Assembly: GCA_026988115.1 (NCBI GenBank)
Contig: JALSLV010000030.1
Location: forward strand, 1 to 64,000
Length of the DNA: 64,000 nt
Reading direction: 5' to 3'
Source of the DNA: Lysobacterales bacterium
GTDB taxonomy: Bacteria > Pseudomonadota > Gammaproteobacteria > Xanthomonadales > Marinicellaceae
The position numbers and the translations under genes were made by a program. Position 1 is the stretch's first letter, and every line of letters starts with the position of its first letter. A model generated the notes under the pieces. That model saw only the letters and a list, made by a program, of their open reading frames with translations. It searched no databases and was not told where the DNA came from. Shown here piece by piece: positions 53,741 to 64,000 of this stretch.

Positions 53741-55501
53741 ATGAATACCGTTAAACGTAAGTACCATAATCGTCCAGAGATGAATTTGGCAGATAAATTT
53801 AATGCACCTATTGGAATGGAAAAAAGTAAAACTGCAAATAAAGCTTCAATTCCTTTAAATCACAAATCTCTTGATTTTTCACCATCAATCATCCCGACTC
53901 CAAGTTTAATTCATCGAGTCTTAACTAAAATGGGCTATGGCTCGACACCTGATTTAATCGCACATATTCAAACATTATCGGGAGTAACTGATAATGATAA
54001 AATATTATCTTATATTGACGAACAATTAAACCCAAGTTTAATTGATGACAGTGTAGTGGATGCACTACTAACCCATGGTTATCAGACACTTAATAAAACA
54101 CGCACACAATTATTTCAAGACCATTACCGTCGCCCTGATGGGGTTGAAATTCCATGGGATTTTCATGTATTGCCAGGATTTGAAACATTTTATGCAACGT
54201 GTGTGCGTGGTACTCAAAGCAATAAGCAATTATTAGAAGTTATGGCTGACTTTTGGCATAACCATTTTAACGTCTACATGGATGCTGATGGAATTCCACC
54301 CATGTTTGTGCATTATGATCGCGATATTATTCGTCCTGATGCTTTGGGTAATTTTCGTTCGATGCTTGAAGGCGTTACAAAAGCGACGTGTATGTTGGAT
54401 TATTTAGGCAATGCTTACAATCATAAAGACCAACCAAATGAAAATTATGCCCGTGAAATTTTAGAATTACACACCATTAGTGCAGAGAATTATTTTGGTC
54501 ACATGAATCCAGCTGACGTGCCTGTTGATTTACAAGGCAGAAAAACAGGGTATGTTGAGGCTGATGTGCAAGAAATGGCTCGAGCATTAACAGGTTGGTC
54601 CTATAGTGGAGCAGATTATGAACCCAATGCAACGGGTGAATTCCTCTATCGTGATAGTTGGCATGATAAAGGCGACAAAACAGTCATGGGAAACATTTAT
54701 TCCTTTAATGCAGCTACTCCAGAGTCCGATGTATTGGAAATTTTAGATTATTTGGCTGAACACCCTGCAACCAATGAATTTTTAGCTAAAAAATTATGCA
54801 AACGTTTTATTAGTGACAATCCACCTCAATCAATTATTGATGCAGTTAAGACAACATTGCATAATAACTGGCAAGCTTCAAATCAAATTCAGTTGGCAAT
54901 GGAAACTCTATTGAAATCAAATGAATTTCTTACAACGTGGGGTGAAAAAATAAAACGTCCTTTTGAACGCGTTATGTCAGCCATGCGACAAATTGGTTAT
55001 TCTTATGATTTTGACCCAACACTAAACATGTCAGATGACCATTTTTGGGCATTTTATAACTCGGGACATATGCCTTTTTATTGGACTTCTCCCAATGGTT
55101 ATCCGGATGTTAAGTCACATTGGTTGGGGTCATCAAGCATGATGGCAACCTGGCGTTATATACAAATGATTAGTCAGTGGCATGTTAATTACGATGAAAA
55201 CCTACCAAACTACAATGACATTCTCAATATAACCTTGAACCAATTTCCTAATCCATTAGATAGAACGGCCAATAATATTGTTGATTATTGGTTTGAACGC
55301 GCTTGTGGGTTACCACCTGATACGGTGATGAAAGAAAAATTGACGGATTTTATGTCTTATTTGGACTACACCAATCCTGTTGTGTCAAATAAAGACATTC
55401 CTATTGACTTCAGTGTTGAGGATTGGCCAAGCTATAATCAAGAACGATTGTTTGCTGTGGTTTCAACAATATTTTTAACTTCTGAATTTAATTACAGGTG
55501 A
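53741..55501 (+). CDS. DUF1800 family protein
   Basis: A 586-residue protein in the usual DUF1800 layout: LIHRVLTKMGYGSTPDLIAH near residue 60, then EVMADFWHNHFNVYMD, NENYAREILELHTISAENYF, MARALTGWSY, and FLAKKLCKRFISDNPP with KSNEFLTTWG. It lacks a clear N-terminal signal peptide but precedes a Tat-type DUF1501 gene, a standard pairing; function unknown. AGAGG lies 10 bases upstream of the ATG. It overlaps the longest reading of the DUF1501 frame by 4 bases. Confidence 0.9.
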   Translation: MNTVKRKYHNRPEMNLADKFNAPIGMEKSKTANKASIPLNHKSLDFSPSIIPTPSLIHRVLTKMGYGSTPDLIAHIQTLSGVTDNDKILSYIDEQLNPSLIDDSVVDALLTHGYQTLNKTRTQLFQDHYRRPDGVEIPWDFHVLPGFETFYATCVRGTQSNKQLLEVMADFWHNHFNVYMDADGIPPMFVHYDRDIIRPDALGNFRSMLEGVTKATCMLDYLGNAYNHKDQPNENYAREILELHTISAENYFGHMNPADVPVDLQGRKTGYVEADVQEMARALTGWSYSGADYEPNATGEFLYRDSWHDKGDKTVMGNIYSFNAATPESDVLEILDYLAEHPATNEFLAKKLCKRFISDNPPQSIIDAVKTTLHNNWQASNQIQLAMETLLKSNEFLTTWGEKIKRPFERVMSAMRQIGYSYDFDPTLNMSDDHFWAFYNSGHMPFYWTSPNGYPDVKSHWLGSSSMMATWRYIQMISQWHVNYDENLPNYNDILNITLNQFPNPLDRTANNIVDYWFERACGLPPDTVMKEKLTDFMSYLDYTNPVVSNKDIPIDFSVEDWPSYNQERLFAVVSTIFLTSEFNYR

Positions 55502-55506
55502 GCAAG

Positions 55507-56844
55507 ATGAAAAAAATAAACAGAAGAAATTTTCTTAAAAAAGCAGGGCTTGTGTCTCTAGGTGCGGTTGCTGGTGTTCAGGTTGGTTTTGGAAACACTA
55601 TTTTGAGAGGTAAAGGTGCGGGCAGTAATGAGCTTTTAATATACGTTCAACTCAATGGCGCAATGGATGGTCTAAATATGGTGCCGCCGCGCACAGGTGC
55701 AAATTACTCCGAATATGCCAATGTTTTAAGACCTGTGATTCATATTCCCAATACCCAATCACTGGCTCTCAATGGAGTGGCTGAGTTCGGTTTGCATCCC
55801 TTAGCAACAGGCATGCAGAGCTTATTTAATGCCAATAAACTGGCAATAATTCATGCCACAGGTTTAATGCAAGCCAATCGCAGCCATTTTGTGTCCACGG
55901 CATTGATGGAACAAGGCGTGCAAAGCACAGCAAGCAATTATGGTACGGGTTGGATAACGCGGTATTTTGAAAGTTCAGAAACAACTCCACCAAATCCAGT
56001 AATTCCATCATTAGTACCGTCCTACGATAACACGGATGCTATATTAGGCGACCCAGCAGCTTTAGTCATGGGTTCATCAACAGAGTTCAGTCTCAACCAA
56101 GGACATTGGGCGTGGGAAAGTGCTATGCAAGACACCATAACTCAAATATTTTCTAATCCAGTTAATACCGAGGATAGGGTGGCTGCCCACACGTTAAACT
56201 CCTCTCAAGTCATACAAAATATTTTTGATGATGTCAACAATCCTTATGTTCCAGAAAACGGAGCGGTTTATCCAACAGGCTATTTTGGTAATCAAACCAA
56301 AGCGGTGGCTCGAATGTACAAAGCCAATGTGGATTTAGAAGTGGCGTATATTCAAACTGGTGGTTGGGATACTCACGTAAATCAAGGAACTGGCATCACA
56401 GGACAATTTGCCGATTTAGTCAAAGAGTTATCTGATGGGCTCAATGCTTTGTATTTGGATTTAACGGCAAGCAATGCTGGTAAATTTACCATCATCGTTC
56501 AAAGTGAGTTTGGTAGACGGGCTTATGAAAACACAGATCAAGGCACTGATCATGGTTATGGTAATCCCATGTTTGTCGTTGGTGATAATGTTAATGGAGG
56601 ATTTTACGGGCAATTTCCTGGTCTTACTCCTGCGGAATTGTTTGAAGGCGATGATGTTGCAGTAACCACCGACTACCGCCATGTTGTTACAGAGGTGTTA
56701 ATGCGTAGAATGAAAAACCGATACCTTGGGCATGTATTTCCTGGTTATAATAACTATTCACCATTGGGCATTGTCACTGGTAATGATTTAGTCCCTGATT
56801 ATAATTTTGAGTTGGATAGGATATTTAACTCTGGGTTTGAGTAG
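55507..56844 (+). CDS. DUF1501 family exported protein with SGFE tail
   Basis: About 445 residues from the ATG at 55507, which has GGTGAG just upstream; the GTG at 55498 is less likely. The leader NRRNFLKKAGLVSLGAVAGV has twin arginines, as in Tat signals. The body has NGAMDGLNMVPPR, GLMQANRSHFVSTALMEQG, GGWDTHVNQ, SEFGRRAYENTDQGTDHGYG and TDYRHVVTEVL, the DUF1501 (sulfatase/alkaline phosphatase-like fold) hallmarks. It ends DRIFNSGFE. It forms an operon with the DUF1800 gene. Confidence 0.92.
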   Translation: MKKINRRNFLKKAGLVSLGAVAGVQVGFGNTILRGKGAGSNELLIYVQLNGAMDGLNMVPPRTGANYSEYANVLRPVIHIPNTQSLALNGVAEFGLHPLATGMQSLFNANKLAIIHATGLMQANRSHFVSTALMEQGVQSTASNYGTGWITRYFESSETTPPNPVIPSLVPSYDNTDAILGDPAALVMGSSTEFSLNQGHWAWESAMQDTITQIFSNPVNTEDRVAAHTLNSSQVIQNIFDDVNNPYVPENGAVYPTGYFGNQTKAVARMYKANVDLEVAYIQTGGWDTHVNQGTGITGQFADLVKELSDGLNALYLDLTASNAGKFTIIVQSEFGRRAYENTDQGTDHGYGNPMFVVGDNVNGGFYGQFPGLTPAELFEGDDVAVTTDYRHVVTEVLMRRMKNRYLGHVFPGYNNYSPLGIVTGNDLVPDYNFELDRIFNSGFE

Positions 56845-56845
56845 C

Positions 56846-57565
56846 TTAGATTGATATATACTGCCACCCTTTGAGTAAATGCGTGGCAACAAAATCCACA
56901 GCTGAAGGCACAACCTGTGCATTTGCCATTAAATTGACAGGTTTGCCTTCTTTTTTGCGTCGGTACATGGTGTTATTGCAAGCAATAAATTTAATAGAAG
57001 GGTATTGTTGACTCAATAGGGCTATTTTCTGTTCAAATGGGCTAAGTGATTTATCCAATAAATCCAAACCTTCTGCACTAGTGACTACATAAACCTGTCC
57101 ATTACTGGCTTGGTGTTCTTGAGCCAATGTTTCGGCTTTATAGAGGACTTGAGTCATTTTTTCTGGTTGGGAAGAGCTTAAAAACACAATGTATTTATCT
57201 TTTTGAATGGCCACTTGTTGGTTGACTATTTGAGTTTTTACAAGCGATTCTGTGTGGTTATTGGCAATATAGAAACCACTGGCTAATGTTAAAATAAAGG
57301 CAAAGAACGCACTGGCTATTTTTAAACTACCAGCGTGTTTAGTGAAGAAGTTTTTCGAAGATTTTTGCTTGAATTCATGCAAGGGATAAGCCGTTTTAAC
57401 CAAATCTTTAATGCGATAAATTTCACAGACCTCACTGCTTAATTGTGGGTCTTTGTCAAGCATTGATAATATTTCTTCTCTTTCATGAACCGGTAGTTGC
57501 CCATCTGCTAGGGCATTGAGCATGTTTTGTATTTTAGTTTCTTGGTTGGTTTTGTTATTTTCCAT
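56846..57565 (-). CDS. Anti-sigma factor with periplasmic DsrE-like domain
   Basis: A 239-residue single-pass protein. Residues 1-80 are a cytoplasmic RseA/anti-sigma-like helical domain (MLNALADGQLPVHEREEILS); no zinc HxxxCxxC motif is seen. A membrane span occupies about 82-101. Residues 122-239 resemble a DsrE/DsrF fold, with the family's cysteine at Cys196 in KFIACNNTMYRR and the typical end QVVPSAVDFVATHLLKGWQY. It overlaps the ECF sigma gene by 11 bases. I infer that the outer domain senses a thiol or sulfane-sulfur signal and releases the sigma factor. This fusion is not one I know as described. Confidence 0.8.
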   Translation of the reverse strand: MENNKTNQETKIQNMLNALADGQLPVHEREEILSMLDKDPQLSSEVCEIYRIKDLVKTAYPLHEFKQKSSKNFFTKHAGSLKIASAFFAFILTLASGFYIANNHTESLVKTQIVNQQVAIQKDKYIVFLSSSQPEKMTQVLYKAETLAQEHQASNGQVYVVTSAEGLDLLDKSLSPFEQKIALLSQQYPSIKFIACNNTMYRRKKEGKPVNLMANAQVVPSAVDFVATHLLKGWQYISI

Positions 57566-58112
57566 TGTTAACTAACCTCTTTAAATGATTGGTTTTTTTT
57601 GTGGTATTTGCAAGTTCGATGCCAATTAATTTGTTTTTAAGTTGAGAGCGAGCTCGGTTTAAACGACTCATCACTGTTCCAATGGGTATGCCTAATATAT
57701 CGGATGCTTCATTATAACTGTTTTCTTCTAAGTCAATGAGTGTAATTACCTGTCTTTGATTTAGAGGAAGCATTTCTATGGCTTTTCTGACTCGGTCAAC
57801 TAAATGCAATTGATTAAACTTTTTTTCAGGGCAATGGTGGCTAATCAGCTCGATATTATCTATGTCTAGGGAAGGTTTTTTGGAACGCAAATAATGCATC
57901 CAGCAATTGTTTAGAATTTTAAATAACCAGGCATTTAGCACACTAAAATCTTTGAGTTGATTGTGCTTCTTTAACGCTTTAGTAATGGTTTCTTGCACCA
58001 AATCATCTGCCAACATGGCATCGGAACACCAAGCATAAGCAAGGCGATAAAGGCGAGGTCTAAACTCGGCAATTTTTCTTTCTAATTTTCTTTTATATAA
58101 TAATTTAAACAT
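57555..58112 (-). CDS. ECF-type RNA polymerase sigma factor
   Basis: About 185 residues from the ATG at 58112 (the frame opens earlier at a TTG). Region 2 is FRPRLYRLAYAWCSDAMLAD followed by DLVQETITKALKK. Region 4 is LPLNQRQVITLIDLEENSYN with IPIGTVMSRLNRARSQLKN as the recognition helix. It is co-transcribed with its anti-sigma factor. A promoter-like GGAATAA-N15-CATCTT lies 24 bases upstream of the ATG and mirrors one on the opposite strand, suggesting self-regulation plus control of the divergent genes. Confidence 0.93.
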   Translation of the reverse strand: MFKLLYKRKLERKIAEFRPRLYRLAYAWCSDAMLADDLVQETITKALKKHNQLKDFSVLNAWLFKILNNCWMHYLRSKKPSLDIDNIELISHHCPEKKFNQLHLVDRVRKAIEMLPLNQRQVITLIDLEENSYNEASDILGIPIGTVMSRLNRARSQLKNKLIGIELANTTKKTNHLKRLVNNGK

Positions 58113-58135
58113 ACTTAATCTCAATTGTACTAACT

Positions 58136-58163
58136 AAGATGCTTTAGAGTTGTTTTTTATTCC
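58136..58163 (-). promoter_or_regulatory. Putative ECF promoter of the sigma/anti-sigma genes
   Basis: On the minus strand: GGAATAA (58163-58157), 15 bases, CATCTT (58141-58136). The start of transcription would fall about 17 bases before the ATG at 58112. The same motif and spacing occur on the plus strand at 58189-58216. Confidence 0.65.
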
Positions 58164-58188
58164 AAAAAAATTAAAAAAACAAATAAAG

Positions 58189-58216
58189 GGAATAAAAACA
58201 GCAAGTAATGCATCTA
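58189..58216 (+). promoter_or_regulatory. Putative ECF promoter of the dsrE-like/porin/rhodanese genes
   Basis: GGAATAA (58189-58195), 15 bases, CATCTA (58211-58216), about 60 bases before the ATG at 58277. Both elements share the -35-like hexamer, the AAA(A)CA that follows it, the G just before the -10-like box, and the exact spacer with 58136-58163. Confidence 0.65.
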
Positions 58217-58276
58217 GATTGTTAAGTGAATTAATATTTTTAATTCTTTATTATTAGTTATAACCAGAGAAAAGTC

Positions 58277-58714
58277 ATGAATATAAAACAAAAATTTATT
58301 AGCTTTTTAGTCTTATTTGCTTTAATTGTAAATGCATCTTTTGCATTTGCAGAAAATGAATTTGCTGAAAAACATATCGTCTTACAAATCAGTGATGCCA
58401 GTCGCCAACAATTAGTGTTAAATGTTGCCAACAATCTCATTAAACACTATGGGCCTGATAGCGTGCAAATAGAAATTGTTGCTTTTAGTTCTGGTTTAAA
58501 ATTGTTATTTGAAAACAATGAAATATCTTCGCCACGCATTGATAGCTTAGTCTCTAATGGAGTTAAATTTAGTGCTTGTTCTAATACGTTAGCAAAAATG
58601 ACTAAGAAAATGGGTAAAAAGCCAGAATTACACAAAGATTCTATTTTAGTATCAGCTGGAGTTGTAAGAATAATAGATTTAGTTGATCAAGGTTATACCT
58701 TAATCAAGCCATAA
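58277..58714 (+). CDS. Exported DsrE-family protein
   Basis: A 145-residue protein with signal peptide 1-25 (ends ASFAFA). The mature part is a DsrE/DsrF-like domain. Its only cysteine, Cys101, is in GVKFSACSNTLAKM, the position used for sulfur transfer in DsrE-like proteins. The C-terminus ILVSAGVVRIIDLVDQGYTL is the usual family ending. It resembles the C-terminal domain of the anti-sigma factor encoded opposite, so the two may bind the same ligand. First gene of an apparent operon with the porin and rhodanese. Confidence 0.85.
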   Translation: MNIKQKFISFLVLFALIVNASFAFAENEFAEKHIVLQISDASRQQLVLNVANNLIKHYGPDSVQIEIVAFSSGLKLLFENNEISSPRIDSLVSNGVKFSACSNTLAKMTKKMGKKPELHKDSILVSAGVVRIIDLVDQGYTLIKP

Positions 58715-58735
58715 AATAATTTAAAGGGGAGAGTT

Positions 58736-60118
58736 ATGAAAATAAAATTACAGATAGCATTAGTAGGTACACTTATTATGACCAGTCACTATGGCTTTGC
58801 GGTAGATTGGGTGTCTTTACAAGGTTTAGAGGGTGTTAAAAAAGAATCAGCCGTAAAAATTTGGGGCTTTTTAGAGCCAGAATATGCACGAACTGATGGA
58901 ACTGAACTAAAAGCAGGGCCTTATGCAGGTCAAGAAGCGGCTTTTAATCAAATAAGACCCAACCAAAATACCAATTCAAGTTTTAATGTTTTTAGAGCGC
59001 GTTTAGGTGTTCGTGGGCAATATGATTACAACAAAATCAATTATTTCTTCTTGTCAGAATTTGGAAATAATGGGATTACCAGAAAAGACGGGCCACAATT
59101 GACTGATGCCAGTGTGACGTTGAATTACATTAAAAACATGCATATTCGTTTTGGTCAATTTAAGTCACCGCAAGGCAATGAAGCACAAAAAGCCATTCAT
59201 ATATTTGATTGGAATCGTTTCTCAAATGCAACCGACAGGTTGTTATTAGAGCGTTTTACTGATGGTAATAATGGTTTGCGCCCTGATGGAAATGGAGGCA
59301 CGAAAGATGTGGCTAATGGTTTAAATGGCCCCATTGGTGCTTTTAGGGATATTGGTGTGCAATTTTTTAATACCTTTACCAATGACAGCAAGCGTGAATT
59401 TACCTATGCGGTGATGTTTGGTAATGGCAATGGCATAAGTCGTAGCGATAATAACAATAACAAAGACGTGTATGTTTTATTATCAACCGAACAAGTTTAT
59501 GGCGGCAGAGGTCCTCGTCGTCAAGGTTTTAAAACCTATGTTTGGTATCTTGATGGCAAAAGAACCTTTGATTACGTAAATGGCTCAAAAAGTAATCAAG
59601 AATTTGACCGCACGCGTTATGGAATCGGAACAACCTACAGAAAAAATAATATACGTTTTTCAGCAGAATACGTTAAAGCGGATGGCATGATTTTTAACGG
59701 TGTTGAAGGGGGAGCGGTCGCGGGAACTTTAGCCAATAATCCCAACATTCCAATAGCCAACCTTAGAACGGCCTCGCTTAATTATTTAGTGGATAATAAA
59801 TCCGATGGTTGGCAATTAGATTTTGGATACAAGGTTATGCCAAAGTTAGAATTGGCAGCACGTTATGATGTGTTAAACAATGCTACTGACGGCTTGTCAA
59901 CTGGCGGAGTTGATCCTTCAGCAGGTGGCGATCCCGAGCGAAAATTTGAAACATTTGCCCTTGGTGCTCAGTATTTTTTCACCAAGAAAACACGAGCAAT
60001 TTTCAATTACGAATTCAGAAATGCTGAAGCTCCCAACCAAGCCAGTGATTCGAATGCAAATAAAATACTGGCTGGAATGGATGATCGGTTAACCTTTCAA
60101 ATACTTCATATTTTTTAA
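58736..60118 (+). CDS. Outer-membrane porin (porin O/P-like)
   Basis: A 460-residue protein with signal peptide 1-22. The mature part is beta-rich with typical porin strands (SFNVFRARLGVRGQYDYNKI, MHIRFGQFKSPQGNEAQ, LAARYDVLNNATDG) and ends in an aromatic residue (LTFQILHIF), as expected for Bam-dependent insertion. It resembles the phosphate-selective porin O/P group; the actual substrate is not shown. GGGGAG lies 8 bases before the ATG. It follows the DsrE-like gene by 21 bases and is likely co-transcribed. Confidence 0.85.
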   Translation: MKIKLQIALVGTLIMTSHYGFAVDWVSLQGLEGVKKESAVKIWGFLEPEYARTDGTELKAGPYAGQEAAFNQIRPNQNTNSSFNVFRARLGVRGQYDYNKINYFFLSEFGNNGITRKDGPQLTDASVTLNYIKNMHIRFGQFKSPQGNEAQKAIHIFDWNRFSNATDRLLLERFTDGNNGLRPDGNGGTKDVANGLNGPIGAFRDIGVQFFNTFTNDSKREFTYAVMFGNGNGISRSDNNNNKDVYVLLSTEQVYGGRGPRRQGFKTYVWYLDGKRTFDYVNGSKSNQEFDRTRYGIGTTYRKNNIRFSAEYVKADGMIFNGVEGGAVAGTLANNPNIPIANLRTASLNYLVDNKSDGWQLDFGYKVMPKLELAARYDVLNNATDGLSTGGVDPSAGGDPERKFETFALGAQYFFTKKTRAIFNYEFRNAEAPNQASDSNANKILAGMDDRLTFQILHIF

Positions 60119-60144
60119 GCTATTTGAAGCTATAAATCTAACAA

Positions 60145-60171
60145 CTAAGACTTGAAGACTTCAAGTCTTAG
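60145..60171. repeat. Intercistronic hairpin between porin and rhodanese genes
   Basis: Perfect 12-bp stem: CTAAGACTTGAA, loop GAC, TTCAAGTCTTAG. No T-run follows, so it is not a standard terminator. It ends 10 bases before the ATG at 60182 and may protect or tune the downstream message. Confidence 0.75.
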
Positions 60172-60181
60172 TGATATTAAA

Positions 60182-60775
60182 ATGAGAAAAATGAAATTAA
60201 ATTATCAAATATTTTGGATGAGCATTTGTGTTTCTTTGCTTTTTGCTAGCACAGTAATAAGCGCAATGCCTCCGATTCCAAAAAGCAAACAAACAACGCT
60301 CGAGTTATATGTTTTGGCAGCTCAAGCCAATGAAATGAAAAATAACAATCCAAAGAAAGTGCTATTTGTCGATGTAAGAACAAGAGCAGAAGTTGCATTT
60401 GTCGGAATGCCATCCAATGCAGATGCGAATATTCCCTATATGATAGTGGGCGATTGGGATGAGTGGGATGAAGAAAAACACACTTTTAAATTGTTTCCTA
60501 ACAGTAACTTTTTGACGTATTTTAATGATTATATCTTAGAACATGGATTTAACAAATCCTCCACCATTATTCTCATGTGTCACTCGGGAAATCGAAGTGC
60601 TGGTGCGGTTAATCTGTTAGCACAAGTGGGTTATACAAAAGTCTACAGTGTTATTGATGGCTTTGATGGTTGGACACAGGAAGCAGTAAGCAATGATACA
60701 GCAAAAGGTTGGAAGCGGTCTGGGTTGCCCTGGACAAAAAAACTCAATGAAGAAAAAATGTACATGGAATTTTAA
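60182..60775 (+). CDS. Exported rhodanese-like sulfurtransferase
   Basis: About 197 residues from the ATG at 60182, with a hydrophobic leader (about 10-27). The rhodanese domain shows VLFVDVRTRAEVAFVGMP and the active-site loop MCHSGNRSAGAV with catalytic Cys133, followed by VIDGFDGWTQEA. Rhodaneses move sulfane sulfur through a cysteine persulfide. Its placement after a secreted DsrE-like protein and porin suggests a periplasmic sulfur-handling unit. The frame opens at a TTG at 60152 within the hairpin, which is an unlikely start. Confidence 0.88.
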   Translation: MRKMKLNYQIFWMSICVSLLFASTVISAMPPIPKSKQTTLELYVLAAQANEMKNNNPKKVLFVDVRTRAEVAFVGMPSNADANIPYMIVGDWDEWDEEKHTFKLFPNSNFLTYFNDYILEHGFNKSSTIILMCHSGNRSAGAVNLLAQVGYTKVYSVIDGFDGWTQEAVSNDTAKGWKRSGLPWTKKLNEEKMYMEF

Positions 60776-60862: not shown

Positions 60863-62248
60863 TTATTCAAAACCATCTTTATACACTAAACCGGGGTCAT
60901 TATTAAAATCTGGTTCAATAGCAGAACCTGATACGACGCCAAGCGGGTTGTATTCATTTTCAGGATATCCAGGGAAAATTTGATGAATTTGGTTGTTATG
61001 CAATCGTTTTAATAATATTTCAGTCCAGACATTGCGGTAATCAACAGTGCCTCTTAAATCCGCTCCTTGAAATAAATCGGCAGGAGCCAGCCCCGGCCAT
61101 TGCCCATATTGTTGACCGCCATTAACACCACCACCGATAACCAAAGAGGTGTTTGCCCAGCCATGATCAGTGCCGGCATCGGCATTGTCATGTGCGCGGC
61201 GACCAAATTCTGAATAGACTAACATGGTGGTTCTTTCTGCCCAAGTTCCTCCACCTGGAGCCAATACGTCTAAATCAGTAAAAAAGGCTTTAAATGCTTC
61301 AGAAATATCACGAACATTGTCATAAAATCCTTCTCCAACCACTAGATTTCTTTGATTATTGTGCGTGTCCCATCCGCTGCGATCGCATTGTCCAATTCTT
61401 ACCCCTGTTTCTTGTTTAATTAATTGTGCCATAATTTGCAACTCTTCACCAAAACCAGTTAATCGTGTTGGGTCATCGGCTCGAACTGGATAAGCTGCGC
61501 CATTATCAGGAGGCGCATTAAAATCAACTTGTTCAACAATGGCAACAGCTGCCATGGCTTGTTCGCCAGCAGCATCCAACTCGTTTGTTCCTGCGCTATA
61601 AATATCTGCCAGTGCCTGTTCTTGGTCACTGTTAAAATTGTTAGCATTGGTCGTATCAAAATCAAATGAACTGGGATAGCGTAATGAAACAGCTGATGGC
61701 TCACGTAACAATGAAAAAGTCACATTTGATTCCGTTACGACAACGGGTAAAGGAATTGCGGCAGGGTAATTTGTGGCAGTTGATAAATGCCGTGTTAACC
61801 ACCCGGTTTGGGTGAATCGATTGCCAGGTGTACCAAGTTCTGCATAACGTTGGGCTTCAAAATGACTGCGGTTGACCTCGTAACTGGGTAGTCCACAGGC
61901 TCGAATAATAGCTAAATCATTTTGTTGGTAGAGATCTTGCAAAGGACCTGCTGCAGGATGAAGACCAAAACCTTGCCCTACCGAAAGCAATTGACTACTT
62001 GGAATCATTGTTCCATTTGAGCGTAAAGCTTCATAATGTCCTCGATCAGGGTGTCCATCCATTGGTGTAAATAGACTTAAGCCATCCATACCGCCACGGA
62101 GAAATACAAAAATGAGTATGTTGTCAGAATAGTTGTTAGCAGAGCCAGCGGCAAATGAAACGTTAGGCAGACTTGCAGCTGTTGCCAGTGATGATGCGGC
62201 AGCACCTTTTAAAAATTTTCTTCTGTTTATCTTGTTAAAATTTGTCAT
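60863..62248 (-). CDS. DUF1501 family exported protein with DGFE tail (second copy)
   Basis: About 461 residues from the ATG at 62248, which has AGGAGA 8 bases upstream. The Tat-like leader is NKINRRKFLKGAAASSLATA. Key blocks: FLRGGMDGLSLFTPMDGHPD, ACGLPSYEVNRSHFEAQRYA, SGWDTHNNQRN, YSEFGRRAHDNADAGTDHGW and TVDYRNVWTEILLKRLH. It ends GLVYKDGFE. It is a paralogue of the gene at 55507-56844 and lies downstream of its own DUF1800 partner with a 16-base gap. Confidence 0.92.
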   Translation of the reverse strand: MTNFNKINRRKFLKGAAASSLATAASLPNVSFAAGSANNYSDNILIFVFLRGGMDGLSLFTPMDGHPDRGHYEALRSNGTMIPSSQLLSVGQGFGLHPAAGPLQDLYQQNDLAIIRACGLPSYEVNRSHFEAQRYAELGTPGNRFTQTGWLTRHLSTATNYPAAIPLPVVVTESNVTFSLLREPSAVSLRYPSSFDFDTTNANNFNSDQEQALADIYSAGTNELDAAGEQAMAAVAIVEQVDFNAPPDNGAAYPVRADDPTRLTGFGEELQIMAQLIKQETGVRIGQCDRSGWDTHNNQRNLVVGEGFYDNVRDISEAFKAFFTDLDVLAPGGGTWAERTTMLVYSEFGRRAHDNADAGTDHGWANTSLVIGGGVNGGQQYGQWPGLAPADLFQGADLRGTVDYRNVWTEILLKRLHNNQIHQIFPGYPENEYNPLGVVSGSAIEPDFNNDPGLVYKDGFE

Positions 62249-62264
62249 GTAAGGTTCTCCTGTT

Positions 62265-64000
62265 CTATCGACGTATGGCATCTGGGGACATCATGATGAG
62301 TCCTATAAGTGTATAGACAACGCGTTGGTAAGTGCTTGAATTTGATAAGTTATTGGTGTCGGTTAAATCGTGTATAGACTGGTTCGCTGTTGCTCCACTT
62401 TTGTTCATAACGTAAGTGATGAGTTGAGTTCGCGTGTTGGCATCATAAGCGTAACCTCGCAAATGCAACATCCATGTATCAACTAACTGCGTAGGTGTGC
62501 GATTCACCGTGCTTGGAATCAAGGTGTTGGATTGTTGAGCTAAGTTAAAATAACGCAATCCACCAAGAATTCCTGTATCGGGATCATCGTAAGTGCTGGC
62601 ACTTCTATTGAGAAAGTACGTGATTGTACGCCACGAGGTGACTAAAGGAGCTGTTCCTGACCACAGGGCTTTTTCATCGGGATAGCCCGTTGGGTCATCG
62701 TAGTTAAAAGGTTTTTGTCCTGTATCATCTAACCGACCAAAAATACTGTTACTTGGCGAGTGGTCATCACGAAAATCAATATCGATATCTGTGGCTCTCA
62801 TGGACGCGATAATGTTTTCTAAAGGACGTTTAACTTTAGTTCCCCAAGTGGTTTGGAATTCTGGTGAAAGAAGTATATGCCGATAGACTTCTTTTAGTTG
62901 ATTGGCATCGTTGCGGCGATTATAAAATTCATCTGCTGTGCTTGATACTAGACTCGCAGGTGGGTTGTCTCCAACCAATCGTGTGCATAGTTTCCATGCA
63001 ATAAATCGAGCGGTGCCATAATGATTGGCTAAGTAGCTTAACACATCGGTGACATCATTTTCTCCTCCGTCAACGCCAATGCTAACATCAAGCACATTAA
63101 TTGGGTTGGCAGCATGGTCATCATAATGTTGGTCGCTTCTAAATAAAAAATTACCTGTATCGGCTGCTCCCCCCGTGCCATCGGCAATACTCCAGCCTGT
63201 TAGAGCGCGTGCAAATTGGAAAACATCAATCTCAGTATAACCCGTGCGTTGTCCTTTGCTGTTATTGCCTAGCGTATTAGGGTCAACGGCACCATAATAA
63301 TTTTCAATAGCCCCTAATGTATGTAATTCTAAAACCTCTCTTGCATAGTTTTCGTTGGGATTGGGCCATGAGTTGCGGTAGTTATCTAAATAAAACAACA
63401 TGCTTGCTGTTTTTGAATTGGCTAGTAACATATCGTAAAAATTGCCAAAGATATGACCTCTTATTTGGCGATCGTATTCTGGTAACATGCTTCTGATGAC
63501 ATCACGATTGCCTTTTACATTGAAGTGATTAAACCAAAAATCTGCTAGTAACTCTCGCAATTGCCATTGGCTATATGTGCCTCGTAGAATTAAAAGTCTT
63601 TCCATTTGGTAACGAGGTCTGCTCTTGGTACTGTATTCATTGGCTCCGGTATAACGGACATGTTCTGTCCATAATTGTGCCGCTGTTTTATTAATTGTAT
63701 CATAGGCAGAACCGCTATTTAAAAATCCTGACATGCGTGCATCCACTTCTGTATCGGTAGAAGTGGGATTGAGTTGAGTATCAACCCAACTTGCTAAGCG
63801 CGTTGCATCATCTGCCCCAAGAGCATTAAATGCATCAATATCACCAGGGCGAGGACCAAAGGCTGCTTTGTTATAAACCAAAGCTCCAAGAGGGGGCACA
63901 TTGACTACAGAAGGAAGCATGATTGGTGAGGGTTTTAAAGTTTTTAATCCACTGAATTGGGGTGCAATAGCATCGGCTTTAGCTTTGTTGGAAAATCCTA
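62265..64000 (-). CDS. DUF1800 family protein, N-terminus beyond window
   Basis: The frame has no stop up to base 64000, so the start probably lies outside; an ATG at 63920 exists but homology begins close after it and the preceding codons also look coding (FSGLKTLKPSPIMLPSV). Family blocks: KAAFGPRPGDIDAFNALGAD, ELLADFWFNHFNVKGNRDVI, NENYAREVLELHTLGAIENY, FARALTGWSI and ILLSPEFQTTWGTKVKRPLE. It pairs with the DUF1501 gene downstream, in mirror orientation to the pair at 53741-56844. Confidence 0.9.
   Translation of the reverse strand, partial: GFSNKAKADAIAPQFSGLKTLKPSPIMLPSVVNVPPLGALVYNKAAFGPRPGDIDAFNALGADDATRLASWVDTQLNPTSTDTEVDARMSGFLNSGSAYDTINKTAAQLWTEHVRYTGANEYSTKSRPRYQMERLLILRGTYSQWQLRELLADFWFNHFNVKGNRDVIRSMLPEYDRQIRGHIFGNFYDMLLANSKTASMLFYLDNYRNSWPNPNENYAREVLELHTLGAIENYYGAVDPNTLGNNSKGQRTGYTEIDVFQFARALTGWSIADGTGGAADTGNFLFRSDQHYDDHAANPINVLDVSIGVDGGENDVTDVLSYLANHYGTARFIAWKLCTRLVGDNPPASLVSSTADEFYNRRNDANQLKEVYRHILLSPEFQTTWGTKVKRPLENIIASMRATDIDIDFRDDHSPSNSIFGRLDDTGQKPFNYDDPTGYPDEKALWSGTAPLVTSWRTITYFLNRSASTYDDPDTGILGGLRYFNLAQQSNTLIPSTVNRTPTQLVDTWMLHLRGYAYDANTRTQLITYVMNKSGATANQSIHDLTDTNNLSNSSTYQRVVYTLIGLIMMSPDAIRR

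Follow-up and report, generated by a model that had tools for sequence, protein, structure and literature searches.

What does a locus that pairs an ECF sigma factor with proteins of a sulfur-carrying fold respond to? To our knowledge, the means by which sulfur oxidizers of this class sense extracytoplasmic thiosulfate or sulfane sulfur are poorly understood. The block at positions 56846-60775 of the window (the whole stretch of 64,000 nucleotides analyzed here) had been proposed as a sulfur-sensing envelope circuit of five genes. On balance we favor reading it as an ECF switch that acts across the membrane and responds to reduced sulfur compounds, in which an anti-sigma factor with a DsrE domain would act as the sensor. 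Of the original prediction, the DsrE fold and the synteny stood up to analysis, and a shared promoter element and an association with sox genes were found in addition, while the rhodanese did not hold its place as a core member.

All five genes were found as open frames, with the sigma factor, anti-sigma factor, DsrE-like protein, porin and rhodanese present where they had been claimed. On the minus strand, the gene for the ECF-type sigma factor P0002 (57555..58112, 185 aa) is directly followed by that for the anti-sigma factor P0001 (56846..57565, 239 aa), a membrane protein, the two genes overlapping at 57555-57565. The plus strand carries the DsrE-like protein P0003 (58277..58714, 145 aa), the outer-membrane porin P0004 of OprP/OprO type (58736..60118, 460 aa) and the rhodanese P0005 (60182..60775, 197 aa). 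P0002 scored above the Pfam cut-offs for Sigma70_r2 (E 2.2e-11) and Sigma70_r4_2 (E 2.4e-14) and above the NCBIfam cut-off for TIGR02937; its most likely start is the ATG at 58112, and a TTG at 58124 opens the longest frame.

The N-terminal half of P0001 was helical in the predicted model and was followed by a membrane helix at residues 83-104 (57254..57319, minus strand), also apparent as hydrophobic sequence. Among anti-sigma models P0001 matched only LIMLP_03685_anti-sigma, at E 0.00078 and with 18.7 bits where the cut-off is 200, and zf-HC2 was matched by 15 of 65 anti-sigma relatives at E 0.01. From the hydrophobic stretches we infer an N-inside orientation, with the DsrE domain probably outside the membrane. 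The earlier claim of an outer DsrE-like domain was borne out by prediction as to its fold, its position being suggested by the hydrophobic stretches.

Residues 122-239 (56849..57202, minus strand) are predicted to fold as a DsrE domain, as had been proposed, the model and the fold searches being in agreement. The DsrE half of P0001 was unrecognized by Pfam, NCBIfam and PHROGs. In Pfam, PF02635 gave no match to the window protein even at E 1 and matched 11 of 65 relatives at E 0.01; because its gathering score was not reached, the fold is claimed and not membership of the Pfam family. A profile of the relatives searched against PDB sequences matched MTH1491 at E 2.4e-21 over columns 123-239, with cysteine on cysteine. 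In the predicted model, residues 121-239 formed one block with pLDDT 95-98, for which the best fold match by Foldseek and VIA-align was also MTH1491 (1l1s; Z 17.2, with 110 residues aligned at an rmsd of 1.7). The ten top rows had Z values of 11.7-17.2 and the eleventh, the first unrelated one, only 6.7; seven of the ten were titled DsrE-like, YchN, DsrEFH or Tus, and 1l1s, 2pd2 and 2fb6 carry titles without a family name. The entry 8uja was titled as a designed cage in the fold search and as DsrE-like in the profile search. Residues 122-239 thus share their predicted fold with MTH1491, ST0148 (2pd2), YchN, DsrEFH and TusBCD, and with MTH1491 and ST0148 also the aligned cysteine, whereas the solved proteins of the DsrE/DsrF fold are free-standing or complex-forming and carry no anti-sigma fusion.

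Both cysteines singled out earlier, Cys196 in P0001 (codon 56978..56980, minus strand) and Cys101 in P0003 (codon 58577-58579), were found at those residues. Cys196 was invariant in three overlapping alignments (45/45, 80/80 and 65/65), even though the 64 aligned relatives were just 18-30% identical to the window protein; it aligns with the cysteine of MTH1491 and is a putative equivalent of the sulfur-carrying cysteine of DsrE/TusD. A tree separated 45 anti-sigma DsrE domains from 40 free-standing DsrE proteins with SH-aLRT 99, a value obtained under program warnings of long branches and few columns. The window protein itself deviates at four near-invariant sites, with F128 replacing the H of the relatives (62/65), S163 their N (59/65), D171 their R (59/65) and H229 their R (61/65), which counts against the switch reading.

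P0003 fell below the Pfam cut-off (E 0.0021) and matched MTH1491 at 2.3e-9. Its hydrophobic N-terminus suggests that it is secreted, and Cys101 was kept in 77 of 78 free DsrE-like proteins. No Pfam match and no sensible PDB sequence match was found for P0004 itself, and PF07396 was matched by 7 of 14 aligned porin relatives. The predicted model of P0004 is a beta-barrel with OprP (2o4v) as the best Foldseek match, which points to an OprP-like porin.

The arrangement of the core genes was conserved, as the earlier proposal had implied. The sigma gene stood immediately upstream of the anti-sigma-DsrE gene in 45/45 and 78/80 loci, both exceptions being contig ends, and where there was room a divergent dsrE was present in 29/43 and 54/71 loci, with a porin next to it in 25/25 and 34/48; the two locus sets have nine anti-sigma proteins in common. 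By the criteria used, the divergent dsrE was missing from 14/43 and 17/71 roomy loci and the porin from 14/48, which counts against the switch reading. As judged from sequence, the block of sigma factor and anti-sigma-DsrE opposite dsrE-porin is one that recurs class-wide.

Both divergent promoters carry an ECF-type element, GGAATA-N16-C(A/G)TC, in the form GGAATA-N16-CATC before the sigma/anti-sigma operon (58137..58163, minus strand) and likewise before dsrE-porin (58189..58215, plus strand), with the GGAATA boxes back to back. At the level of promoter sequence, the shared element thus agrees with the proposal that the divergent operon is not independent of the sigma factor. The element was present toward sigma in 66 of 74 regions, toward dsrE in 54 and in both directions in 53, against shuffle means of 0.15, 0.095 and 0, the pattern having been picked by eye from the same regions later counted. 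Within the 64 kb window it occurred at these two places only (up to one mismatch, spacer 16). Across 70 module genomes the strict element turned up at 22 sites, spread over 16 genomes, compared with 5 backward controls, and 19 of the 22 adjoin a module by coordinates; its presence in just 16 of 70 genomes speaks against the switch reading. In 14 genomes a looser element yielded 35 sites compared with 9 controls; of the 35, we place 9 next to a module and 6 in front of a different gene. The seven other exact sites in the window's own genome all lie inside ORFs, and the regulon there therefore looks local. The element also stands upstream of soxX and soxB in one relative (G658) and of soxX in another (G562). 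The invariant cysteine, the class-wide synteny and the paired promoter element place this locus beyond chance.

The link to sulfur oxidation is strengthened by genome content, by adjoining sox and transporter genes and by the element before sox genes. In a draw of 369 genomes, 64 had the full-length protein and 63 of these carried soxB, versus 87 of the 305 others (Fisher p 6.5e-28, in a test that ignores shared ancestry), or by genera in 50/51 versus 65/221. Since 87 genomes carry soxB in the absence of the full-length protein, soxB does not need the switch. SoxA- and SoxB-type genes adjoin 4 of 44 modules and a sulfur-transporter family adjoins 5 of 44. Titles name a genus for 33 of 80 named loci, and 32 of these 33 we take to be sulfur oxidizers. 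As the relatives go with sulfur-oxidation genes, the switch may be the sulfur sensor of many sulfur oxidizers.

Under the switch reading, the anti-sigma DsrE domain would lie in the periplasm and, at rest, the N-terminal half would keep the sigma factor at the membrane. Periplasmic sulfane sulfur or a thiosulfate-derived group would load Cys196, directly or through the secreted DsrE, and the loaded domain would alter its shape, partner or protease sensitivity such that the sigma factor is released. Once freed, the sigma factor would transcribe its own operon and dsrE-porin, and in some relatives sox genes too, the products of dsrE-porin serving perhaps in anion uptake, sulfur buffering or relay. 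We only tentatively extend this to a full relay, in which sulfane sulfur from a Sox carrier or polysulfide would pass to the secreted DsrE and on to Cys196, the freed sigma factor inducing a porin for anions along with its own sulfur carrier, and also sox genes in part of the sulfur oxidizers of the class. If true, this would be a transmembrane sulfur relay not known to have been described, in which a sulfur-trafficking fold receives the signal that controls a sigma factor.

No description of a sigma/anti-sigma-DsrE block was found in the literature searched. The regulators described there comprise ArsR repressors, sulfite-linked ECF pairs and two-component systems (PMC12423496, PMC3511301, PMC6527743, PMC12194929, PMC5093147). 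In the available parts of these sources, RpoE1 and RpoE4 of Sinorhizobium meliloti (ECF26) and their anti-sigma factors are activated on thiosulfate or taurine metabolism and control sulfur oxidation (sorT) with autoregulation, the proposed signal being sulfite (PMC3511301, PMC6527743). These are likewise ECF sigma/anti-sigma pairs tied to sulfur oxidation, but by description their target is a sulfite dehydrogenase rather than dsrE-porin or sox and their anti-sigma factors are described by COG5662; in the available text of PMC3511301 the sole string matching DsrE was DsRed. In Hyphomicrobium denitrificans, sox is regulated through cysteine-sensed sulfane sulfur by SoxR/sHdrR with SoxT1B, described as repressors of the ArsR type that a membrane transporter supplies, in contrast to the membrane anti-sigma-DsrE and sigma factor here (PMC12423496). 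A sensor of that type, a DNA-binding repressor with a pair of sensing cysteines, was rejected for P0001, which has no ArsR match in Pfam and consists of a helical half, a membrane helix and the DsrE domain. TspS/TspR and RsrS/RsrR of acidithiobacilli also regulate sulfur oxidation genes, but as two-component systems, for which the portions available mention neither an ECF nor a DsrE component (PMC12194929, PMC5093147). The present block offers a candidate that is widespread and comes with a sensor domain that can be named, a single invariant cysteine and a promoter element that predicts targets. It makes the question directly testable, being concrete and having sequenced Thiobacillus, Guyparkeria and Thiohalobacter strains among its hosts. 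If the reading is true, a sulfur-carrier fold missed by Pfam and NCBIfam in the window protein would be a signaling domain.

The DsrE domain could instead bind no sulfur of its own and be a docking site, in a hetero-oligomer like DsrEFH or TusBCD, for the secreted DsrE, which would carry the sulfur and be a co-regulator in the manner of RseB for RseA. Like P0001, RseA is an anti-sigma factor of the membrane that extends to the outside and may work with a periplasmic partner, as far as the accessible part of PMC8103513 describes it, and Pfam RseA_N touched only 1 of 65 anti-sigma relatives here. The frequent position of free dsrE opposite the sigma gene under the same promoter type, its well-kept cysteine and the heteromeric complexes among the fold matches (2hy5 DsrEFH, 2d1p TusBCD) suit docking; we nevertheless think it rather unlikely, as mere docking would not need Cys196, which is invariant too, and some loci have no divergent dsrE. 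We know of no DsrE domain in the outer part of RseA. An ordinary envelope-stress or porin-homeostasis system, with DsrE as a generic domain on the outside and only host lifestyle behind the sulfur link, would accommodate the porin as the most regular neighbor of divergent dsrE and the missing SoxA in the window's genus, but appears improbable given the element ahead of soxX in two relatives and of soxB in one of them, the soxB association, the invariant cysteine at the DsrE-family position and the second DsrE under the same promoter. Least credible to us is a sensor at Cys47 (57425..57427, minus strand), in the presumably cytoplasmic and sigma-binding half, reacting with cytoplasmic sulfane sulfur or thiol stress while the outer domain just tunes, although the conservation of Cys47 counts against the switch reading: Cys47 was conserved in 60 of 65 aligned proteins, the window protein included, but was missing in five where Cys196 was in all, and a purely cytoplasmic sensor would have no need of a fused DsrE with an invariant cysteine past the membrane helix.

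A reading confined to the window's genus is that the switch there no longer serves thiosulfate oxidation but has been re-tuned to handle sulfane sulfur, the rhodanese having joined its target block. We regard this as possible but doubtful. By family model SoxA was found in 0 of 4 tested genomes of the genus, own genome included, and canonical Sox thiosulfate oxidation is therefore an unlikely output in the own genome; the four changed positions and the local regulon also fit re-tuning. The missing SoxA counts against the switch reading as well. A SoxB-type protein is present, which argues the other way; in the genus SoxB was above cut-off in 7 of 11 genomes and the full-length module occurred in only 2 of 11, a mismatch that weighs against the switch reading. 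The rhodanese matched Pfam PF00581 (E 6.5e-11) and PDB 2fsx (2.9e-19), has the CHSGNRS loop intact as described earlier, and may be secreted, judging by a hydrophobic stretch. It adjoins the module in 2/44 and 0/80 loci, namely the window and its congener G010, which favors re-tuning and makes it an accessory outside the conserved core. A strong hairpin precedes the rhodanese in both genomes, making its co-transcription doubtful; the terminator-like hairpin in the window (60145..60171, plus strand) has perfect 13-bp arms and no T run, and that of G010 has a T run. As an upstream TTG at 60152 lies inside the hairpin, the ATG at 60182 is the most likely start of the rhodanese.

The module consists of an ECF sigma factor gene (57555-58112, minus strand) which overlaps the anti-sigma factor gene behind it (56846-57565, minus strand), and of a divergent plus-strand side carrying a small DsrE-like gene (58277-58714), a porin gene (58736-60118) and a rhodanese gene (60182-60775). 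The sigma factor and the rhodanese were recognized by Pfam. The free DsrE protein was matched by Pfam at E 0.0021 only, no Pfam family was found for the anti-sigma factor at the Pfam cut-off, and NCBIfam gave a weak anti-sigma match to residues 18-113 of the latter (E 0.00078).

The original prediction of a DsrE-like C-terminal half in the anti-sigma factor was borne out by profile, predicted fold and structure searches, which agreed. A profile of 42 relatives matched the MTH1491 structure over columns 123-239 (E 2.4e-21), with cysteine aligned to cysteine. A model for which the window protein was aligned with 64 named-locus proteins (mean pLDDT 85.3, pTM 0.57, with a poor linker) contained a helix at residues 83-104 and a block with pLDDT 95-98 from residue 121 onward, and its best Foldseek match was 1l1s (E 4.9e-7, TM 0.88 by target length). 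With VIA-align, ten rows scored Z 11.7-17.2 and the next row 6.7, most of the ten being titled DsrE-like, YchN, DsrEFH or Tus; no family was listed for residues 1-117, a region which this search barely probed. These predictions identify the C-terminal half as a DsrE domain, which would lie outside the membrane because one hydrophobic helix follows the N-terminal half.

When genome contigs were scanned with the window anti-sigma protein alone no relative was obtained, as the sequences are too divergent for that method. A 42-row alignment (A3) held no pattern conserved enough and a narrower alignment (A4) was used instead; its pattern found at least 171 relatives among 594 stretches, and 80 of these were kept as named loci. 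In the first search 5 of 61 genomes matched: an anti-sigma-DsrE gene facing a divergent DsrE gene was present in the window's own genome, in a congener (G010) and in G038 and G048, which both belong to another family, and G001 carried a free DsrE only. The order draw gave matches in 9 of 398 genomes and the class draw in 81 of 369 at E 1e-8, with a full-length match, by our own reading, in 64 of the 81. In the phylum draw of 398 genomes, scored on up to seven candidates per genome, full-length matches were found in three (the window's own, G961 and G1012), all of the window's class, and the other matches listed were partial. Forty regions were fetched, from 5 order-draw genomes and from 35 class-draw genomes with a full-length match (out of 63, the window's own not counted), mostly the best-scoring ones; together with the window, G010, G038 and G048 they made up 44 loci with 45 anti-sigma genes. 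DsrE-like matches in plasmid records of Azospirillum, Rhizobium and Indioceanicola (three inspected of ten) were not taken as members because they were short and without the anti-sigma half. One genome, G476, held three full-length copies of the anti-sigma-DsrE protein, and one locus, L089, held two tandem sigma/anti-sigma-DsrE pairs.

The cysteine of the anti-sigma DsrE domain, Cys196, was invariant, being kept in 45/45 proteins from the genome draws, in 80/80 from the window and 79 named loci and in 65/65 of the folding alignment, the last two alignments overlapping in their sequences. D21, G97, W234 and Y236 were among other residues also invariant in the 80-row alignment, and Cys47 of the N-terminal half, absent from the original prediction, was kept in 60/65. 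The equivalent cysteine of the divergent free DsrE was present in 77/78 rows, the remaining row having a gap at that column. The window protein itself departs from its relatives at four near-invariant positions: F128 (His in 62/65), S163 (Asn in 59/65), D171 (Arg in 59/65) and H229 (Arg in 61/65). In a quick, unrooted tree, for which the program cautioned that columns were few and that long branches meet, the DsrE domains of 45 anti-sigma factors were split from 40 free-standing DsrE proteins by one branch (SH-aLRT 99), which would suit a single origin of the fusion.

The sigma gene lay directly upstream of the anti-sigma gene in 45/45 cases in the 44 loci and in 78/80 named loci, the other two being at contig ends. 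Where over 900 nt were available, a divergent dsrE was present in 29/43 and 54/71 loci, and a porin came next in 25/25 and 34/48 where more than 1500 nt remained beyond dsrE; over-long ORFs in GC-rich loci may conceal some neighbour genes from these counts, and the two sets share nine anti-sigma proteins. A cultured sulfur oxidizer, Guyparkeria hydrothermalis R3 (L157), is among the carriers of the entire block, with porin, dsrE, sigma and anti-sigma genes. The neighbourhood proposed originally thus recurs as sigma/anti-sigma-DsrE facing dsrE-porin, but the rhodanese does not belong to the recurring part: its profile matched only the window and G010 (2/44 and 0/80 loci). G010 carries all five genes, with flanks that differ from the window's. 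Between porin and rhodanese there is a perfect inverted repeat with 13-base arms (60145-60171, z -4.6), and at the same place G010 has an unrelated hairpin of equal strength (z -5.8) with a T run behind it. Because a strong hairpin separates the two genes, transcription from the porin may continue only weakly into the rhodanese.

The intergenic regions between sigma and dsrE were compared in a set of 74 distinct sequences (84 minus 10 near-copies). An ECF-type element, GGAATA-N15..17-C(A/G)TC, picked by eye from these same 74 regions, pointed to sigma in 66 of them and to dsrE in 54, with 53 regions carrying it in both orientations; the spacer was 16 at 64 sigma-ward and 50 dsrE-ward sites. 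In 200 dinucleotide shuffles the corresponding means were 0.15, 0.095 and 0 and the maxima 2, 2 and 0. The G038 and G048 regions lacked the element in this exact form. In the window it lies at 58137-58163 (minus strand, toward sigma) and 58189-58215 (plus strand, toward dsrE), both with spacer 16, and no further site with up to one mismatch was found within the 64 kb. As the same element precedes both divergent units, both are probably read by the sigma factor of the module.

With respect to a wider regulon in the window's own genome, GGAATA-N15..17-CATCT occurred exactly at 9 sites against 1 control, and the 7 sites outside the module, all inside ORFs, were taken as chance; no site was found near its soxB. 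Across 70 module-bearing genomes the strict element gave 22 sites in 16 genomes versus 5 controls, and 19 of the 22 adjoin the module as judged by class-draw match coordinates. The other three, inspected by eye, were two before TPR-like frames and one pointing away from a DsrE gene; the TPR-like frames (L250 and L263, two species of one genus) are similar to each other and are a possible further regulon member. A looser element in 14 module-bearing relatives gave 35 sites versus 9 controls, of which 9 were beside the module (5 by locus inspection, 4 by class-draw coordinates), 6 before another gene, 18 in ORFs or without a downstream gene and 2 left unplaced. The six preceded soxX (two), soxB, a free DsrE, a thioredoxin-like gene and a haloacid dehalogenase gene. 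In G658 one copy of the element lies about 205 nt upstream of soxX, which by eye is followed by a SoxY-like frame, and another some 155 nt upstream of the SoxB match, this second site being called by judgement as it sits within over-long frames; in G562 the element stands just before soxX, again by judgement, within a short 85-aa frame. A second free DsrE-like protein is encoded in the window's genome (contig C26, 26275-26658; L237:8267-8737; E 1.4e-16), where the element was not found in L237, and a relative of it in G001 (L005) is beside a similar AAA-type frame, the neighbours being named by eye.

Within the class draw, soxB was present in 63/64 genomes with the full-length protein and in 87/305 others, 17 genomes with a non-full-length match being counted among the latter (Fisher p 6.5e-28; by genus 50/51 versus 65/221; both the test and the genus counts ignore shared ancestry). 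soxB was called with TIGR04486 at E 1e-100 in 150 genomes, 148 of them above the curated cut-off, and G451 was the one full-length-protein genome without it. Among the titles of the 80 named loci a genus was given in 33 and none in 47; 32 of the 33 were Thiobacillus, Thiohalobacter, Sulfuricella, Sulfurimicrobium, Sulfuriferula, Thioalkalivibrio, Thiogranum, Halothiobacillus, Guyparkeria or Sideroxydans, which are sulfur oxidizers, and the remaining one was a MAG titled Rhizobium. With neighbour families each named from one representative (SoxA and SoxB above cut-offs, SoxAX-binding protein below its own), soxA- and soxB-type genes adjoined the module in 4/44 loci (three of one genus), and a transporter family above the Pfam Sulf_transp cut-off and below those for TsuA did so in 5/44. 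A secreted-looking thioredoxin-like family was near the module in 7/44 (as at L059 and L052); in the single case of L195 a similar protein is directly behind the element. In the window's genome a SoxB-type protein scores 697 bits against a cut-off of 550, and SoxA at E 0.001 was found in none of this genome and three congeners (0/4) and was present in G038 and G048. Within the genus, SoxB was above cut-off in 7/11 genomes and the full-length module present in 2/11. Given the lack of SoxA in these four genomes and the presence of the module in only 2/11, the output of the switch in this organism looks local and not canonical Sox.

Pfam Porin_O_P was matched by 7 of 14 aligned members of the porin family and not by the window porin, for which sequence search alone gave no sensible PDB match. 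Its model was a beta barrel (pLDDT 79.3) with OprP as best PDB match (E 2.4e-14, TM 0.51-0.56), and many general porins scored nearly as well. A preference for anions would be in keeping with a role in taking up thiosulfate or other oxyanions of sulfur.

The architecture, invariant cysteine, conserved block and shared promoter element fit a membrane ECF switch which would answer to reduced sulfur outside the cytoplasm. Such sulfur would be the signal and would be loaded onto Cys196, the free DsrE would have a role in signalling, and the sigma factor would then be released, both that role and the way of release being our proposal. ECF control of sulfur metabolism has been described for S. meliloti RpoE1/RpoE4, which respond to sulfite-generating compounds (PMC3511301); the accessible part of that text names no DsrE, whereas here a DsrE domain is a feature of the anti-sigma factor. 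Sulfane-sulfur sensing of sox is described for ArsR repressors (PMC12423496), and in a Sideroxydans transcriptome thiosulfate raises sox and dsr genes, with no sigma factor named in the part accessible (PMC8788666). In the literature searched, which covered main texts and few subscription papers, no description of an anti-sigma factor fused to DsrE was found.

On each side of the module, and pointing toward it, is one of two similar-looking gene pairs (53741-56844, plus strand; 60863-63920, minus strand), each encoding a large protein and then a protein with an RRxFLK start; these may be DUF1800/DUF1501 pairs. Three proteins with ends near 56842, 60865 and 52724 carry short similar C-terminal tails (NSGFE, KDGFE and SDGFE) and begin with hydrophobic N-termini or RR-type starts; the tails are possibly a sorting tag.
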